A stretch of DNA of 25,784 nt from positions 1 to 25,784 of the IMG/VR virus record IMGVR_UViG_3300033388_005991; one strand, given 5' to 3'. The stretch is from a virus. Positions 19,129 to 25,784 of the stretch are shown piece after piece. Below the pieces are notes generated by a model, which saw only the letters and a list, made by a program, of their open reading frames with translations, did no database searches and was not told the origin of the DNA. The position numbers and the translations under genes are program-made. Positions within the stretch are counted from its first letter, which is position 1, and every line of letters begins with the position of its first letter.

Positions 19129-19425
19129 TTATTTTCTTTTGAACTTTTTGGGTTTTTTATCATCATCGGAAGCAGCATCAGTGGCTTGGGCATCTGCATC
19201 CGCTTTGGCATCTGCGTCCTCTGCGTCCCCTGCTTTGGCTTTAGCTTCCGCTTCGGCTATGGCTTCTTCCACTTCTTTGGCTTCAGCTTCTTTGATTATT
19301 TTGTCTGCTGCTTTCAATTTGGCTTCAGCTATTTTATCCGTCTGACTCCATCCAGCTTTAAGACAAATATCAAGTTGGTCTTTGTCTACAAACTCCATAA
19401 CTCTTTTACCTTTAAAAAGCTTCAT
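19129..19425 (-). CDS. Small Ala/Asp/Lys-rich head protein
   Basis: This 98-residue protein starts at the ATG at 19425, with AAGGAG ten bases upstream. Residues 1-30 form a small ordered segment (RVMEFVDKDQLDICLKAGWS). Residues 32-75 are Ala/Glu/Lys-rich and probably a single long helix. The end is acidic (DAEDADAKADADAQATDAAS) and finishes with basic KKPKKFKRK. The N-terminal 'VDKDQL...L.AGW' pattern recurs in small phage genes next to coat genes; their role is unproven, with minor capsid or connector functions proposed. Low sequence complexity makes database matches unreliable. The strong hairpin before it may lower its expression compared with coat protein. Confidence 0.65.
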   Translation of the reverse strand: MKLFKGKRVMEFVDKDQLDICLKAGWSQTDKIAEAKLKAADKIIKEAEAKEVEEAIAEAEAKAKAGDAEDADAKADADAQATDAASDDDKKPKKFKRK

Positions 19426-19462
19426 AATTTTAACGCTCCTTCTTTTTTCTAAAAATCAGTTA

Positions 19463-19493
19463 AGTTAACCCAATCCATAGGACTGAGTTAACT
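19463..19493 (-). terminator. 14-bp hairpin after coat gene, leaky terminator candidate
   Basis: On the transcript 5'-AGUUAACUCAGUCC-UAU-GGAUUGGGUUAACU-3' forms a 14-bp stem with two G-U pairs and a 3-base loop. It starts 20 bases after the coat stop codon. UAACUGA and then UUUUU follow, so the U-run is displaced by 7 bases and termination is expected to be partial at best. A partial stop or a 3' stabilising structure here would let the coat message be more abundant than the genes downstream. The next gene's SD is 26 bases further on. Confidence 0.6.
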
Positions 19494-19513
19494 CACTTAA
19501 TTTAAGAATGTGT

Positions 19514-20674
19514 TTATACTGATTTATCTCCAACCAATGTAATACGCCTTGGATCAAGGGCAAAACCGCCACAAAGAAGATCAAGGGACATGGTTGTTTT
19601 CTTGGTAGAAAGATCATAACCTTTAACAATACGGATACTTACACCGTTATTGGCTACTGTTGCCGCAACTCTGTCTTCGGGAAGATCAAGAATTGGGAAA
19701 GCGATTGCCAAAGAACGATCATCCATGATAACGCCATGATGCTGGAGATTTTTACCAGAACCAAGCACTGTAACAGCAGCACCATCAGGAATAATTTCAG
19801 TGATGGGATCAACAAGCACAATTTCAGTGGTTGCGGTTGCATCAGCAACGGCTGTTTTAACGATCAATGGACGCCTTACACCTGCAATAGCAAGTCTGCA
19901 ACCTGCAACGAGAGTCAAGGCAGAACCGGCAGCATCAATGCTTAGAATTTTATCACCGATGAGATTCTCAGTACCGGAGTTGTTGTCAGTAGTGGTTACA
20001 AGAGTACCTGTAACGGCTGCGGATGCTTCAGTCGGAAATGCGATACTGGAGAAGAAATCCATCCCCATTACACGCCCCATATCAGCTTCACGGAGAGTTT
20101 TTTCACCATCTCCACCACGTGTCTGTGACTGGTTAAACCATGTCTGACCCAAGAGAGTCGCTTCAATGTCCAGATCGACCAGACAGAAACGATTCATTGC
20201 AAGCTGTTGCAATGTTGCATTTTTTCTTGCAAGAGCGATATCAGCAGCAGTTTCAAACAATGCTGTGCTGTAATATCCACCAGCACCTTGAAGAAGTTTG
20301 GTGCCAATATAGGTGTCAACTTTTTCTGCCAGTTTATACGTAGCAGGTTTGATGATCTGATCCACAAAAGAATCAAGATCCAGGGATTGTTCGGCTGCTG
20401 TGATAGCAACTGAAATATCGAAATGTTTTTCGATCTCAAGAGGACGTGTACTGGATGTAACATCCTGTGTGGAGATAGTGGTTGTAAATTCATCAACCTC
20501 ATATTCTCCATGAGTTCTAAAAGATACCGTGTCACCGACTTTCCAGCCGTTTGACTTGGTGGTGAAATCACTGGTTTTGTCTTTCGCACATAGAGGAGCA
20601 ATTACAAGAGCATCCTCCAGATGTGTTAAAGCTTCCATTGCGATTACTGAGGGATGTTCCCAAATGTTTGCCAT
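19514..20674 (-). CDS. Major capsid protein, P22 coat-like
   Basis: This 386-residue protein starts at the ATG at 20674 (MANIWEHPSVIAMEALTHLE), seven bases after GGAGG. An in-frame GTG at 20710 would add 12 residues that include the SD, so it is rejected. The order of segments follows the P22 coat family: an N-terminal helix region, WKVGDTVSFRTHGEYEVDEF, LEIEKHFDISVAITAAEQSL, KLAEKVDTYIGTKLLQGAGG, and a C-terminal block LAIAFPILDLPEDRV, GVSIRIVKGYDLSTKKTTMS, LDLLCGGFALDPRRITLV. A beta-rich stretch at about 225-310 probably corresponds to the inserted domain seen in P22 coat. It has its own promoter and leader upstream and a hairpin downstream, fitting a very abundant product. Confidence 0.88.
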   Translation of the reverse strand: MANIWEHPSVIAMEALTHLEDALVIAPLCAKDKTSDFTTKSNGWKVGDTVSFRTHGEYEVDEFTTTISTQDVTSSTRPLEIEKHFDISVAITAAEQSLDLDSFVDQIIKPATYKLAEKVDTYIGTKLLQGAGGYYSTALFETAADIALARKNATLQQLAMNRFCLVDLDIEATLLGQTWFNQSQTRGGDGEKTLREADMGRVMGMDFFSSIAFPTEASAAVTGTLVTTTDNNSGTENLIGDKILSIDAAGSALTLVAGCRLAIAGVRRPLIVKTAVADATATTEIVLVDPITEIIPDGAAVTVLGSGKNLQHHGVIMDDRSLAIAFPILDLPEDRVAATVANNGVSIRIVKGYDLSTKKTTMSLDLLCGGFALDPRRITLVGDKSV

Positions 20675-20706
20675 TTTAAATTCCTCCAAATTATAATTAA
20701 ATTCGC

Positions 20707-20781
20707 TCACCCGGCTTTAAGTGAAAAGGGCCGGTGAAACCTTACTAAAAATCTTAATAATGTTTTCCGACCCCCAAGGTC
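20707..20781 (-). promoter_or_regulatory. Structured coat-gene leader (two further stems)
   Basis: Two more stems lie between hairpin 20791-20807 and the coat SD. The first is GACCU-UGG-GGGUC at 20781-20769 (5 bp with one G-U). The second pairs UCACCGGC-type arms at 20737-20730 and 20715-20707 (8 bp with one bulged base), around a 14-base loop. The region 20675-20859 has no gene. The leader from the promoter at 20826-20854 would be about 145 bases long, unusually long for this compact operon, so translation or stability control is plausible. Confidence 0.4.
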
Positions 20782-20790
20782 TTCAAAACA

Positions 20791-20807
20791 GTGTTCCTCA
20801 GGAACAC
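20791..20807 (-). promoter_or_regulatory. 17-nt UGAGG hairpin in coat leader
   Basis: The transcript reads GUGUUCC-UGA-GGAACAC, a perfect 7-bp stem with a UGA loop. It would begin about 12 bases after the predicted transcription start of the coat promoter, a position where 5' stem-loops often protect mRNA from decay. It shares its loop and the following GG with the two hairpins at 21657-21697, while the arms differ. Confidence 0.6.
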
Positions 20808-20825
20808 CTTTATACTTTTTCCGAC

Positions 20826-20854
20826 ATTCTAAATAATTAAATTCAGGATGTCAA
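20826..20854 (-). promoter_or_regulatory. Strong sigma70-like promoter for coat gene
   Basis: TTGACA (20854-20849) is a perfect -35 and TAGAAT (20831-20826) matches 5 of 6 bases of the -10, with an optimal 17-base spacer that is A/T-rich. It begins six bases past the TAA of the scaffold gene, so it lies wholly in the gap before the coat gene and points along the operon. Transcription would start near 20819. Extra transcription from here would explain how coat can be made in large excess over portal and scaffold-gene neighbours. It may be read by the host polymerase without phage factors. Confidence 0.7.
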
Positions 20855-20859
20855 GAACT

Positions 20860-21636
20860 TTATTTCTTTTTATACTTCGCTTTCAGGGCACGATATGCGT
20901 CAGCATCTCCTGAGGCTGCTACTGCTTGCAATTTAGCTGCTTGATCGGATTCTGGTCCACTGGAACCACCTTGTGCTCCTGCACCTTCTGAACCAGGCCA
21001 GTAATGAGGAGATGTTTCTTTTAATCCCTCAATCCAGTTTTCGGTTGTCAGGACTTTTTTATCCTCAGTAACAGCCAATTTACCTTCTTTATCACGTGCT
21101 TCAATTTGCTTGTTGTCATCCAAGGAGAATATACTTCTACCACGGAGGACTGCATCCTCAACTGCTGTGGGAAGCATGTCAGCTTTTACGGCTGCTGCAC
21201 GGACACCGTCATCTATTACCTTTGCTTCAAAAAGACCCTGATAACTGGCTCCATGGGTTGTGGCTGTTGTCAACTTTCCATTAAGTTCCGTGATCTGTGT
21301 TTCAAAATCGGAAGTTATCTGAGAAGTTTTCTTTTCAATCAATTCCTCAACAGTTCCGTCTTTCAGGAATTCAGCATCTTTATTCTTTGTATAGAAATCG
21401 GTTGCTGTTTTAAGTGTTTTTGGATCGAAACCATCAAACGTTTTAAGAGTTTCCTGTAAGGTTTTTTTCTCACCAATAATTTCCTCGTTTTTGGTCTTTA
21501 GACCGGATACTGCTTCTTCCACTACTGTTTTGTTTGCATTGGTCAGATCAACTGTAACTTTGTCCACTGCAATTTTGTGTGCGTCCTCTGCTTTTGCTCT
21601 AAGGTCTGTGTCTTCAATAAAATCAAATTCTGGCAT
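20860..21636 (-). CDS. Scaffold protein
   Basis: This 258-residue protein starts at the ATG at 21636, seven bases after GAGGAG. It is highly charged and helical. Residues about 10-130 form likely coiled coils (AKAEDAHKIAVDKVTVDLTN, VSGLKTKNEEIIGEKKTLQE, FETQITELNGKLTTATTHG). A middle segment (GVRAAAVKADMLPTAVEDAV) is followed by a Gly/Ser linker at about 215-228, and a short basic helix AYRALKAKYKKK ends the protein. A basic C-terminal helix is the coat-binding part in P22-type scaffolds. The gene lies between portal and coat, the usual place. The protein should guide procapsid assembly and leave before packaging. I see no protease domain. Confidence 0.82.
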   Translation of the reverse strand: MPEFDFIEDTDLRAKAEDAHKIAVDKVTVDLTNANKTVVEEAVSGLKTKNEEIIGEKKTLQETLKTFDGFDPKTLKTATDFYTKNKDAEFLKDGTVEELIEKKTSQITSDFETQITELNGKLTTATTHGASYQGLFEAKVIDDGVRAAAVKADMLPTAVEDAVLRGRSIFSLDDNKQIEARDKEGKLAVTEDKKVLTTENWIEGLKETSPHYWPGSEGAGAQGGSSGPESDQAAKLQAVAASGDADAYRALKAKYKKK

Positions 21637-21656
21637 TTTCGTTCTCCTCGAATTTC

Positions 21657-21697
21657 GGAATCCTCAAGATTCCAGTTTGTGGGAGCCTCAGACTCCC
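21657..21697 (-). promoter_or_regulatory. Tandem UGAGG hairpins between portal and scaffold genes
   Basis: Two 17-nt hairpins stand 7 bases apart. On the transcript the first is GGGAGUC-UGA-GGCUCCC (21697-21681) and the second GGAAUCU-UGA-GGAUUCC (21673-21657). Each has a 7-bp stem (one G-U pair) and a UGA loop, with UGAGG at the same place. The second ends seven bases before the scaffold SD, where a bound protein or stable fold could affect ribosome access. No U-run follows, so these are not typical terminators. Confidence 0.6.
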
Positions 21698-21706
21698 GTT
21701 AGGTAC

Positions 21707-23338
21707 TTACTTCTTGGTTCTATTACGTACTTTTCTATCAACCTCTTTTCTTTTTGCTTTTTTCTCCTTTGCTAACTTATCCGCTTTTTTCTTTTCCTTT
21801 GCTTTTTTATCTTTTATTTTTTTATCCGCTGCTGCGGCATCTTTGGATGTCTTCTTTTTCTTTGTAACATCCGTGGTATCCTTTTTCTTCTTTGCTCCAA
21901 TAAGATTGCCTTTATCATCTTTAAGAGAAAGATCACCTTCATCTTTGTTTGCATTTATTGGAGCAGTTTTAAGCTGTACAACATATTCCTCATAACCCAC
22001 AGTCTGATCCAACAAACCTGAATATACAAGGTATCTATGTATAACTTCCAATGGCACAACCCCTGTAACAAATCCTTCAATAATCTCATTGAGAATGGAA
22101 GCATCTGGTATACCTTGAGTAAGGGAAGAGGGTGCATCCAGTACAACTTCTTCTTTATTATATCCATGCCAATCACACATTGCTTCAAGACCCTGTTTTA
22201 TTGCATTCATGGCAGCAAGAAAAACAGAGTATATTGAGGCTGATTGAGTTGATTGACGTATTCTTAATGATTCAGCAGCTTCAACACCCTTACGAGCATC
22301 TAAGATGGCAACACCGTGACGTATCGCCTCTTCGTACAGGTCTGTTATGTGAGATTTTACGTGTGTGAGTGCTGCGGTATCGGTTTCTGTATAAAAAATA
22401 CGTGCTTGGTCATTAGGAATTACCATCATTACTGAAGATCCTACAACGTTCGGAAGATTACTGTCATTACTGGCACCGACTATACATAAGGTAGGATTAC
22501 AAGACAAGTATTCAGAGTTTGCCAAATCAGCTTCTTTCCTGTATATCTGGATTGAACAATTGGCAACTGAAACAAGAGGTATCGGCTGCATGTCAAAGGA
22601 GTTATTTATGGAACCTGCAAGAAACAGGGGAATTCTATCAAGTTGTTTTCCACGTAAATTTGGAGTTACACTGGTATCTGCTACTTGTGTTCCATCATCA
22701 TTATATAAAGCAGTGACATATTTACCGCTTTTGTCCAATTCCAGGACTCTGTAAACATCTTTAGTTGTATGAGAGAATTTATCTTCCGAATCAGGCACAG
22801 CCTCCTTTAAAACTCCTAAGGTTAGACTTTTTTCCTCTTTGACTATGCTTGATTTCCAATTAATAAATTCCTCTGCCGTATAATCCACAAATCTGCATTC
22901 ATTTTTAGCTGCAATCACATCAACTAATAAAGGACAACGACCTGTTTGGAATATTTCAATAATCATGTCCAGAAATAACTGATTCAGGGAACGTCCATCT
23001 TTGGTAGCAGTTTTCAATATGTATTCAAGTTTCGATGGAACATTGAAATCAGGGAGTTTTGTAATTACGATACCTAATGCTCCAGAAAGAGCATAAGAAG
23101 TGACAAGAGGAAAATGGGCACGTTCCAAATAACCATCATATGCTTTGGCATAATCACCTGCCATGCCTGAAGGTCTTGGGAGATACTTTTCTGTTTTGGA
23201 TTTAATTACATCTTCACCATCCATGCAATCCCTGACTCTTTCCCACGGAGTTACATTCTTTTGATAATCAGGATGAACTGTATCAACCGCTCCCAATTTT
23301 TTAGTATCCTCTTTTTTGGTGTATTTCTTTTTTGCCAT
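21707..23338 (-). CDS. Portal protein (DUF4055-like) with Lys-rich C-terminal tail
   Basis: I start at the second of two adjacent ATGs (23338; six bases after AGGAG), giving 543 residues; the ATG at 23341 would add one Met. It would form the 12-subunit ring for DNA entry. The N-terminal region HPDYQKNVTPWERVRDCMDG, VIKSKTEKYLPRPSGM, then YDGYLERAHFPLVTSYALSG follows the DUF4055 portal pattern. A long alpha/beta middle leads to a helical ALTHVKSHITDLYEEAIRHG and a crown-side region with GVVPLEVIHRYLVYSGLLD. The last 63 residues are extremely basic, with about 27 Lys (AKKKKD, TKKKKTSKD, DKKAKEKKKADKLAKEKK) and likely unfolded or a long helix. The large terminase gene lies 10 bases upstream. Confidence 0.85.
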   Translation of the reverse strand: MAKKKYTKKEDTKKLGAVDTVHPDYQKNVTPWERVRDCMDGEDVIKSKTEKYLPRPSGMAGDYAKAYDGYLERAHFPLVTSYALSGALGIVITKLPDFNVPSKLEYILKTATKDGRSLNQLFLDMIIEIFQTGRCPLLVDVIAAKNECRFVDYTAEEFINWKSSIVKEEKSLTLGVLKEAVPDSEDKFSHTTKDVYRVLELDKSGKYVTALYNDDGTQVADTSVTPNLRGKQLDRIPLFLAGSINNSFDMQPIPLVSVANCSIQIYRKEADLANSEYLSCNPTLCIVGASNDSNLPNVVGSSVMMVIPNDQARIFYTETDTAALTHVKSHITDLYEEAIRHGVAILDARKGVEAAESLRIRQSTQSASIYSVFLAAMNAIKQGLEAMCDWHGYNKEEVVLDAPSSLTQGIPDASILNEIIEGFVTGVVPLEVIHRYLVYSGLLDQTVGYEEYVVQLKTAPINANKDEGDLSLKDDKGNLIGAKKKKDTTDVTKKKKTSKDAAAADKKIKDKKAKEKKKADKLAKEKKAKRKEVDRKVRNRTKK

Positions 23339-23350
23339 CATTATCTCCTT

Positions 23351-24814
23351 TTATTGGTGGACTACCCTACGTTTCATAGCTGTTAATCTCCGTGCCAACA
23401 TGTATCTCAATGAATCCATAAGGTGATCCTCAAGTTCGGTATCAATATCCTCTGGCTTCTTTTTATCCCTTTGCATCTGTGGCAATGTGCGTATGTGATG
23501 TTCTGCTGGAGCAAAGAAGTAAAGGTGAGGGGATTCTAATTCTCCTCTCTTAGCGGCTCCTAACATTTGTCTAATAATAGCCCACCCTGCAATTCTCGAC
23601 CCGGACCCTTTATAAGCTCTAGTCCATTTACAACCGTGTTTTTCTAACTGTGCCCCAATAGATGTACCATCCCGCACTTCGTAAATGGATGTATCTGCTG
23701 GACCTGGAATACATTGAGTATTGTATTCTGTTAATAATGCGTTGTCAACACCTAAAACACGACTAGCTATTTGTGAGGAAGTAGCTTGATCGCCCTCATT
23801 AGCAGTACCGTTCCATCCATATATCTCATTAGGAATAATTACAGAGCCTTTTGGAATGTATGGAAGTTTCATACCACCTAAATGTCTCGTATCAGGTTGT
23901 TCCCCATTTGCCTCAAACCCATAAGAAACGCCCCAAGGCTTGGAAGAACCCCAATCAAAACTTCTCATAAGTCTCCAAGATACAGGCACTTTGAACGTTG
24001 GTAATATATGAATATCCTTGTCCCATACATCAGTAAAGAAACCACCAATGATCAAATCCCATGACCCATCTATCCAAGCTTTCCTCAACATTTCATCATC
24101 TTGAGTTAAAGAGTAAATTTTTGCCATATATGTAGGATCGGCTGTCATTAAGGATAAGTTCTCTGCCTGAAAGGATCTTATATGTGTTCTTGAAATGGAC
24201 ACATGTTGGGTCACATCATTACCCTGTGCATCAGGATAAGTAACTTCTAATTCTTCTTTAACTATTTTCTCCGGTGGTCCTTGATCAATGAATCTTGATT
24301 TAACCCATTGATGGCCTGGACCGGATGGATTGCATGTCGCTCTATATTTTCTCGGAATATTAGGATTTGATGATCTGTTACATGACATGATTTTAAGATA
24401 GACTTTATTCGTTGCATGGTTGGTGAGTTCTTCCCAACCGATCCATGGATACTCATGCCCATGATATTGTTCATAATCGTCTTCGACTCTTGCGTAATTG
24501 AGCCAGAGGGTTTCTCCTCCTTCAAATGTCCAGATTTTCTTTTGATTATTGAAGTTGGCGGTGGGGAATATACGAGGTATCCATTTCTTAGTCTTCGTGA
24601 TAACATCACCCAACTCTGTTGTCGCTTCTCTAAGGAGCAATCCTTTGTAATCAATTCCATGACCTACTCCTACTTCTTGTAAATAATCCATTAGAAGAAC
24701 GTCTGTCTTGCCACCGCCACGATTACCATGGAGCAATAATTCATCAACGGGACAAGACATGAATCGTTCTTGGGAACCGGGATAGGGTTTCCAAATCTCA
24801 AGAGGCTTTGCCAA
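23351..24814 (-). CDS. terL: Terminase large subunit
   Basis: This 487-residue protein starts at a TTG (24814-24812), seven bases after AGGA; a stop lies directly before it in frame, and the next Met is residue 19, so TTG is the best start. It packages DNA by ATP-driven translocation and cuts it. Walker A is GNRGGGKT at 30-37. Walker B is PWIGWEE at 123-129 with the catalytic Glu at 128 or 129. The coupling motif is TCNP at 160-163. The nuclease half has RSFDWGSSKPWG with Asp287, GPADTSIYEV with Asp374, and LEDHLMDSLRYML with Asp463 or Asp467, giving the usual three acidic positions. The gene is full length and followed closely by the portal gene. Confidence 0.95.
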   Translation of the reverse strand: MAKPLEIWKPYPGSQERFMSCPVDELLLHGNRGGGKTDVLLMDYLQEVGVGHGIDYKGLLLREATTELGDVITKTKKWIPRIFPTANFNNQKKIWTFEGGETLWLNYARVEDDYEQYHGHEYPWIGWEELTNHATNKVYLKIMSCNRSSNPNIPRKYRATCNPSGPGHQWVKSRFIDQGPPEKIVKEELEVTYPDAQGNDVTQHVSISRTHIRSFQAENLSLMTADPTYMAKIYSLTQDDEMLRKAWIDGSWDLIIGGFFTDVWDKDIHILPTFKVPVSWRLMRSFDWGSSKPWGVSYGFEANGEQPDTRHLGGMKLPYIPKGSVIIPNEIYGWNGTANEGDQATSSQIASRVLGVDNALLTEYNTQCIPGPADTSIYEVRDGTSIGAQLEKHGCKWTRAYKGSGSRIAGWAIIRQMLGAAKRGELESPHLYFFAPAEHHIRTLPQMQRDKKKPEDIDTELEDHLMDSLRYMLARRLTAMKRRVVHQ

Positions 24815-25276: not shown

Positions 25277-25520
25277 GCTCTAACCCTCTTTCATACCAAG
25301 ATTTCTCTACTGCTCCTACTACACCCATGCAACGAGTGCATATAAACCGCCTACTCATATTGGGACTTGGATGAGGTTCAAATTTATGAAAGGAACAACT
25401 ACGTAACAAAACATTGTTTGCTTTTACTTCTATCCAAATTTCATGTATTGTCTTTTTAGACAAACCACTGATCTTGGCTAAAGCATCCGATCCTTTTTTA
25501 CCTTTCTTGAGCTTGGGCAT
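25263..25520 (-). CDS. Small protein with zinc-ribbon-like Cys/His motif
   Basis: This 85-residue protein starts at the ATG at 25520, overlapping the previous stop as TAATG, with AGGAG eight bases upstream. The N-terminal third is basic (MPKLKKGKKGSDALAKISGL) and contains ALAKISGLSKKTIHEIW, which could form a helix-turn-helix. The second half has C42-x2-H45 and C61-x2-C64 (CSFH, then CTRC), a plausible zinc-binding ribbon. It may bind nucleic acid. Because no other small terminase gene is visible next to the large one, this is one candidate for that role, but its length is well below usual. Confidence 0.62.
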   Translation of the reverse strand: MPKLKKGKKGSDALAKISGLSKKTIHEIWIEVKANNVLLRSCSFHKFEPHPSPNMSRRFICTRCMGVVGAVEKSWYERGLEHGNH

Positions 25521-25784
25521 TATAACATCTCCTGTACATATAAATAAGCAGAACTATTAATATCACATCCTTCCCAATCCAGACATTGTTCCCCTGCCAA
25601 TCTTGCACAAACTGCATTGTCAAAATCTTTGTACTGTCCAAGGTATTTGACTTTCTCATTTAATTTGATATGGGCTTGCCATCGTCCATCTTTTTTATTC
25701 CAGTAAACACCTTTTACCCCCCTGGTATTGTCTTTTCTTAGTCCTATATTTCGCATATTACATTGCTGTGATCTTTCCCTAAGA
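25520..25784 (-). CDS. HNH-type homing endonuclease, C-terminal AP2 part, cut by window edge
   Basis: The first visible ATG (25756) gives 78 residues, but the frame is open upstream to the window edge and reads LRERSQQCN before that Met. Together, LRERSQQCNMRNIGLRKDNT matches the end of the HNH region of HNH-AP2 homing endonucleases ('N.LRE.s..qN..Nr...kNNtSG'), so the ATG is probably internal and the N-terminal catalytic part lies outside. RGVKGVYWNKKDGRWQAHIK and KYLGQYKDFDNAVCARLAGE form the AP2 DNA-binding domain (GVYW, RWxAxI, LGxY). Such selfish nucleases are common next to terminase genes. The catalytic half cannot be judged from here. Confidence 0.78.
   Translation of the reverse strand, partial: LRERSQQCNMRNIGLRKDNTRGVKGVYWNKKDGRWQAHIKLNEKVKYLGQYKDFDNAVCARLAGEQCLDWEGCDINSSAYLYVQEML

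Follow-up and report, generated by a model that had tools for sequence, protein, structure and literature searches.

Tailed phages must produce scaffold and coat proteins in the right ratio, and the locus described here raises the question of whether RNA hairpins in the leaders of the two genes help to set it. The window, a 25.8-kb stretch of an IMG/VR record, carries its structural genes on the minus strand in the order terminase, portal, scaffold, coat. The module is P22-like, with a coat of the P22_CoatProtein family and a scaffold gene between portal and coat. An initial annotation had described three short hairpins bracketing the scaffold gene, two in the scaffold leader and one in the coat leader, and this placement on the mRNA (minus) strand holds on the sequence (Table 1). 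The hairpin set looks like a control device balancing scaffold and coat. It belongs to a little-known group of bacterial viruses, and neither the RNA-family library nor the literature searched contained a match.

Table 1. Capsid genes of the window and the RNA and promoter elements in their leaders. Hairpin loops are in parentheses.
Feature	Sequence	Position	Strand	Remarks
Portal gene		23341-21707	-	phrog_145
Scaffold-leader hairpin 1	GGGAGU(CUGAG)GCUCCC	21681..21697	-	Directly 3' of portal stop
Scaffold-leader hairpin 2	UGGAAUC(UUGAG)GAUUCCG	21656..21674	-	3' end 6 nt from scaffold SD
Scaffold SD	GAGGAG	21644..21649	-	
Scaffold gene		20860..21636	-	258 aa; phrog_206; predicted long helices and C-terminal helical hairpin
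Sigma-70-like promoter	TTGACA-17-TAGAAT	20826..20854	-	Between scaffold and coat, after scaffold stop
Coat-leader hairpin A	GGUGUUC(CUGAG)GAACACU	20790..20808	-	
Coat-leader hairpin B (helix 1:2)	GACC(UUGGG)GGUC	20769..20781	-	Flanks GUUUU/AAAAC; putative antiterminator
Alternative helix 2:3	Arm 2 GGGGGUCGG (20775-20767); arm 3 CCGGCCC (20734-20728); then UUUU (20727-20724)	20724..20775	-	Intrinsic-terminator-like; excludes hairpin B
Helix 3:4	CACCGGC (20736-20730) with GCCGGGUG (20715-20708)	20708..20736	-	Third mutually exclusive helix
Coat SD	GGAGG	20683..20687	-	In the folding model only, pairs with arm 1 of hairpin B once helix 2:3 has formed
Coat gene		19514..20674	-	P22_CoatProtein family; PF11651, 63 bits; phrog_283

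Within the window, TGAGG is flanked by a stem of more than four pairs at only these three sites, both strands included. Dinucleotide shuffles of the two gaps contained on average 0.005 YUGAG hairpins with a stem of 5 or more pairs, compared with the 3 observed, and none of 5000 shuffles reached 3. Over the whole mRNA strand, the 3 such hairpins compare with a shuffled mean of 0.37 and a maximum of 2 (200 shuffles). The 7-bp stems ascribed to the hairpins are present, provided that U-G wobbles adjoining the loop are counted among some of the pairs. The coat leader also contains a fourth family member, hairpin B, which the annotation lacked. Nor did the annotation include the coat promoter, the wider definition of the loop, the terminator-like helix that competes with hairpin B or the SD-enclosing hairpins of relatives, all described below.

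For comparison, metagenome-derived sequences of related uncultured phages were gathered by a coat search (52 loci) and a portal search (36 loci). In those with coat identities of 53-85%, the same gaps carry the same hairpins, with stems that are rewritten yet still pair. Across 16 scaffold leaders, 98.7% of the cells in the two hairpins are paired, and two-sided compensatory changes are seen in 11 of the 14 pairs (6 of 7 in hairpin 1 and 5 of 7 in hairpin 2). The covariation score of these leaders is 0.761, versus 0.381 after shuffling, with slid versions scoring far lower, and their loop-closing pair is C-G or U-G only. For hairpins A and B in 20 coat leaders, 98.1% of cells are paired and 7 of 13 pairs show a two-sided change; taken alone, hairpin A has 5 of its 8 pairs changed on both sides (20 relatives). 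The arms of the relatives are thus paired and covarying, so that one outcome named in the annotation as refuting its idea, relatives without paired arms, is not what is seen.

The UGAGG proposed as the core was too narrow, relatives showing UGG, AGA, AGG and UGU triloops. It was ruled out as the defining core by an unbiased census of triloop hairpins in 80 gap sequences, which counted 117 on the sense strand, 51 on the antisense strand and 25.8 in shuffled sequence, and every one of the top six sense classes conforms to Y-[UA]G[AGU]-G. The true motif is a pseudo-triloop, Y-[U/A]G[A/G/U]-G, carried by a stem of unconstrained sequence; pairing of the Y with the last G can leave just three loop bases. 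Among 120 hairpins with a YNGNG loop, position 2 is U in 92, A in 19, G in 7 and C in 2, position 4 is A in 63, G in 46, U in 11 and never C, and 62 distinct 5-nt stem arms are found; this search imposed the pyrimidine and the two Gs, whereas the triloop census imposed none of them.

In both gaps the core hairpins are confined to the sense strand; all antisense counts trace to the window's own sequence in the opposite orientation. A second sample, collected with a scaffold profile and overlapping the coat and portal sample in part, gave 161 sense hairpins and 1 antisense at 67 distinct loci, and the hairpins are retained at scaffold identities down to ∼38%. One of the three hairpins is a near-perfect DNA palindrome (GTGTTCCTGAGGAACAC), as might be expected of palindromes arising by chance or of an element acting at the DNA level, for instance the site of a DNA-binding protein. 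However, the shuffles and the 161 to 1 strand bias oppose this reading, and the wobble pairs present (81 G-U cells in stems and 55 loop-closing U-G pairs) are tolerated by RNA alone. We consider it extremely improbable, and in practice it is refuted by the strand bias and the covariation. The motif was noticed first and then tested on related sequences, with antisense, shuffle, slide and permutation controls to guard against over-reading. That a conserved RNA family exists is, in our judgement, virtually certain.

The family is tightly confined. Ten long related records (∼700 kb) were scanned between genes for hairpins whose second loop base is U or A and whose stem has at least 6 pairs; nearly all of these surround scaffold and coat, with a few scattered others. 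A covariance model of the scaffold leader, R1, gave one match of 65-80 bits in each record of the training group, these being training members, as is the hairpin 2 region of the window (75.4 bits); the next match was at the same place in an independent record (E 3e-5), and thereafter there was noise. Searched for in IMG/VR, the exact hairpin sequence occurs near scaffold only in this phage group and elsewhere is isolated, with no portal, scaffold or coat nearby. Rfam 15 returned just a spurious 8.5-bit tmRNA match for window positions 19400-23400 at E-values up to 5, and no family matched eleven related loci at the gathering score. A nucleotide search against known phages gave no match. No such hairpins were present in the inspected scaffold/coat gaps of eight phages chosen for a distantly related coat or portal (CV-1-33, Ab105-2phi, Pkon1, 033B, AcoS-R7M, P22, VvAW1 and VanLee), and an R1 search of their records found nothing. 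A literature search yielded nothing on such leaders, nor on P22 gene 8 autoregulation. In a host search, coat relatives were found in the genomes of only two species, on contigs that are possibly phage contigs binned with MAGs, and scaffold was present in 1 of 125 genomes of the phylum of the first of these species.

Repeats of a different family were seen elsewhere in record G003, where three strong hairpins between genes share the loop CGGUG, GUUUCCUA-CGGUG-UAGGAAAC (33274-33294, 34255-34279 and 36760-36782).

In the scaffold leader, the tandem hairpins lie at about -62 and -40 from the scaffold start, with a fixed start-to-start pitch of ∼22 nt, and occupy the region 6-48 nt 5' of the SD. 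About twenty more distant loci have an SD-enclosing hairpin at about -24, for example UCUC(UUGAG)GAGA. Since the hairpins fall inside the scaffold ribosome footprint, ligand binding would repress scaffold translation. A leader of this kind could also act with no ligand, its loops serving as SD-like standby sites or the leader itself as a thermosensor or a purely kinetic switch; GAGG is present in many loops, and the coat SD is predicted to be paired in the default fold. We regard such effects as improbable, because many loops, among them CUGGG, UUGUG and CAGAG before A, do not resemble an SD, and such effects give no role to tandem hairpins at a fixed 22-nt pitch.

The coat leader appears to have its own promoter, a promoter-like sequence being found at the same place in most relatives. 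Further downstream, the 3' half of hairpin B is also arm 2 of an alternative helix, so that helices 1:2 and 2:3 are mutually exclusive. Helix 2:3 is recovered by the consensus fold of the coat leaders, with 95.6% of cells paired and a two-sided change in 5 of 9 pairs, and cognate pairing of arm 2 with arm 3 in 28 leaders gives -15.4 kcal/mol versus -12.9 kcal/mol when permuted (0 of 5000). A U-rich run comes after the helix, with 5.5 U in 10 nt versus 3.0 expected across 45 leaders, and the U count observed in the first 6 nt was reached in none of 5000 random placements. Based on the shared arm 2 and this U-rich run, helix 2:3 is terminator-like and hairpin B antiterminator-like. In two relatives, L224 and L226, the sequence at helix 2:3 resembles a textbook terminator. 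The terminator-like hairpin has a long, partly self-paired loop (∼35 nt), and a simple terminator scan allowing loops of 3-8 did not list it. Helix 3:4 was read by eye and was not counted formally, since two stem types exist.

In the folding model, helix 2:3 is more stable than 1:2 by some 2-13 kcal/mol, and formation of 1:2 would therefore depend on binding or on kinetic trapping. The coat SD has an unpaired probability of 0.15 in the default fold and 0.36 with hairpin B forced, and when 1:2 is forced the SD becomes more open in 21 of the 27 leaders and less open in 2, these values being model outputs for leaders that are related to one another. A coat switch acting on translation only was our first idea, and was judged secondary once the U-run 3' of helix 2:3 had been recognized. 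Attenuation of coat is rather likely. It would not be universal, since one clade (L031, L032, L037, L040, L050 and L052) has the hairpins and no clear terminator-like helix.

Several further features of these leaders were observed. In the same clade and in L041, an outer helix such as AUCCC...GGGAU encloses two YWGNG hairpins, which suggests a three-way junction. The coat SD of L033, L037 and L050 lies within a palindrome, for example AAUUC-UUUGGAG-GAAUU, and that of the window sits in a weaker one, AAUU-UGGAGG-AAUU (20679-20692). In L035 (3303-3870, with a similar case in L084), an insert with what reads as an HNH/AP2-like endonuclease gene splits hairpin B; it sits right after GACCUUGG, with an intact hairpin B downstream, and a homing element may thus target this hairpin. 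Between scaffold and coat, L015 (2262-3836) carries a large inserted endonuclease-like gene, of 477 aa, as do L010, L011, L012, L014, L018 and L148. A conserved RNA-like element, GAGGGAUAGGGU(A/C)GCUCCUGAA...ACUCA...UUUUCCCUC, lies 5' of genes of this type and had no match in an Rfam search. The window itself has a 78-aa minus-strand ORF at 25520-25756, possibly a homing endonuclease remnant, whose match to the AP2 domain is weak (E 5e-5) and falls short of the Pfam cut-off.

What might read the hairpins? A fixed loop on changing stems, strand specificity, tandem sites at a fixed pitch and an arm shared with the terminator switch point to a sequence-specific RNA-binding ligand, and we think it probable that the hairpins are protein operators. 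The annotation's proposal of protein-binding sites tuning the two genes gains good support from the covariation, the strand bias, the invariant loop on a variable stem and the restriction to two leaders; its P22 parallel is indirect. It had also offered mRNA processing or decay, in which the hairpins would protect 5' ends or guide endonuclease cleavage between the portal, scaffold and coat messages. Such a role would suit hairpins that sit between genes, one of which, hairpin A, starts ∼20 nt past the predicted coat start site. A generic stabilizer, however, needs neither an invariant Y-W-G-N-G loop on free stems nor SD-containing copies nor a terminator-like helix, and the idea, which gained no support, is in our view quite unlikely, mRNA decay being the less likely explanation of the pattern.

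Returning to the operators, we lean slightly towards the hairpins being cis-acting recognition sites through which one ligand represses scaffold translation and antiterminates coat. The two leaders would share a single RNA-binding ligand, most probably a phage protein, that binds their hairpins. In the scaffold leader it would act on tandem hairpins within the ribosome footprint, with the SD inside one of them in many relatives. In the coat leader, transcribed from its own promoter, binding would hold 1:2 and block the terminator-like 2:3, and with 2:3 prevented, coat mRNA would be made and the coat SD would be less paired. The best guess for the ligand is the scaffold protein, favoured because P22 scaffold limits its own synthesis and because the sites occur only at scaffold and coat; we offer it tentatively, as somewhat short of likely. 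The scaffold structure model has no recognizable RNA-binding fold and no PDB match, and the predicted helical protein with its C-terminal helical hairpin neither supports nor excludes RNA binding.

The reader of these same operators could instead be a host protein, the coat protein or some other RNA-binding protein of the phage. No computed result singles out scaffold, and the conserved loop shows only that something recognizes it, whereas the restriction to scaffold and coat leaders is more easily explained by a dedicated phage ligand than by a general host factor. We rate a ligand other than scaffold as doubtful but worth keeping in view. The complete scheme for scaffold, in which it reads one hairpin code as repressor on its own mRNA and as antiterminator on coat mRNA and thereby sets capsid stoichiometry, is unlikely to be correct in every part. 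If it were, the scaffold-to-coat ratio would be coupled to free scaffold: a tailed phage would gauge free scaffold and set its capsid stoichiometry through RNA, by a new protein-RNA pair and a compact leader combining repressor and antiterminator. With a highly covarying 17-nt RNA element, present about four times per genome and confined to two leaders, the scaffold/coat ratio question becomes directly testable.

Among known systems, CsrA/RsmA hairpins likewise have a G-rich loop near SD sequences. CsrA requires GGA, which is absent from loops such as CUGAG before A, CUGUG and CAGAG before A, and a search of 17 phage records for CsrA (PF02599) gave no match; CsrA was therefore rejected as a candidate, the loop sequence and its absence from the phage records both disfavouring it as ligand. 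The MS2/R17 coat-protein operator is a short conserved-loop hairpin at which a structural protein is the translational repressor, but it belongs to an RNA phage and has a bulged A, a four-base loop and an unrelated sequence.

P22 has the same gene order and coat family, and its scaffold (gene 8) limits its own synthesis post-transcriptionally; to our knowledge, the RNA target of this autoregulation has never been mapped. P22 is not a direct parallel: no gap separates its gene 8 from gene 5, and no such hairpin turned up within the initial 8 kb of the P22 record. That this precedent for scaffold autoregulation lacks the element counts against the proposed scheme.

In the BglG/LicT RAT antiterminators, a protein-stabilized mRNA-leader hairpin shares an arm with an intrinsic terminator. 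Hairpin B is predicted to share an arm with a terminator-like helix in the same way, and in sequence and predicted structure the coat leader has the RAT arrangement of a promoter followed by an antiterminator hairpin that is exclusive with an intrinsic-terminator-like helix. The loop and stem here differ from the RAT sequence, and the same hairpin family also stands in tandem before the SD of another gene.

The nearest described design is the T4/RB69 gene 43 operator, in T4 an 18-nt conserved-loop hairpin ∼40 nt upstream of the start at which the gene's own product, gp43, binds and represses translation (PMC3014915). That operator is a single hairpin with a UAAC loop, rather than YWGNG, and serves a DNA polymerase gene, not a capsid gene, with no second leader bearing an attenuator. 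The likeness lies in a short conserved-loop hairpin near the start of a phage gene: here, too, conserved-loop hairpins stand close upstream of the scaffold ribosome-binding site, and in distant relatives they overlap the SD itself.
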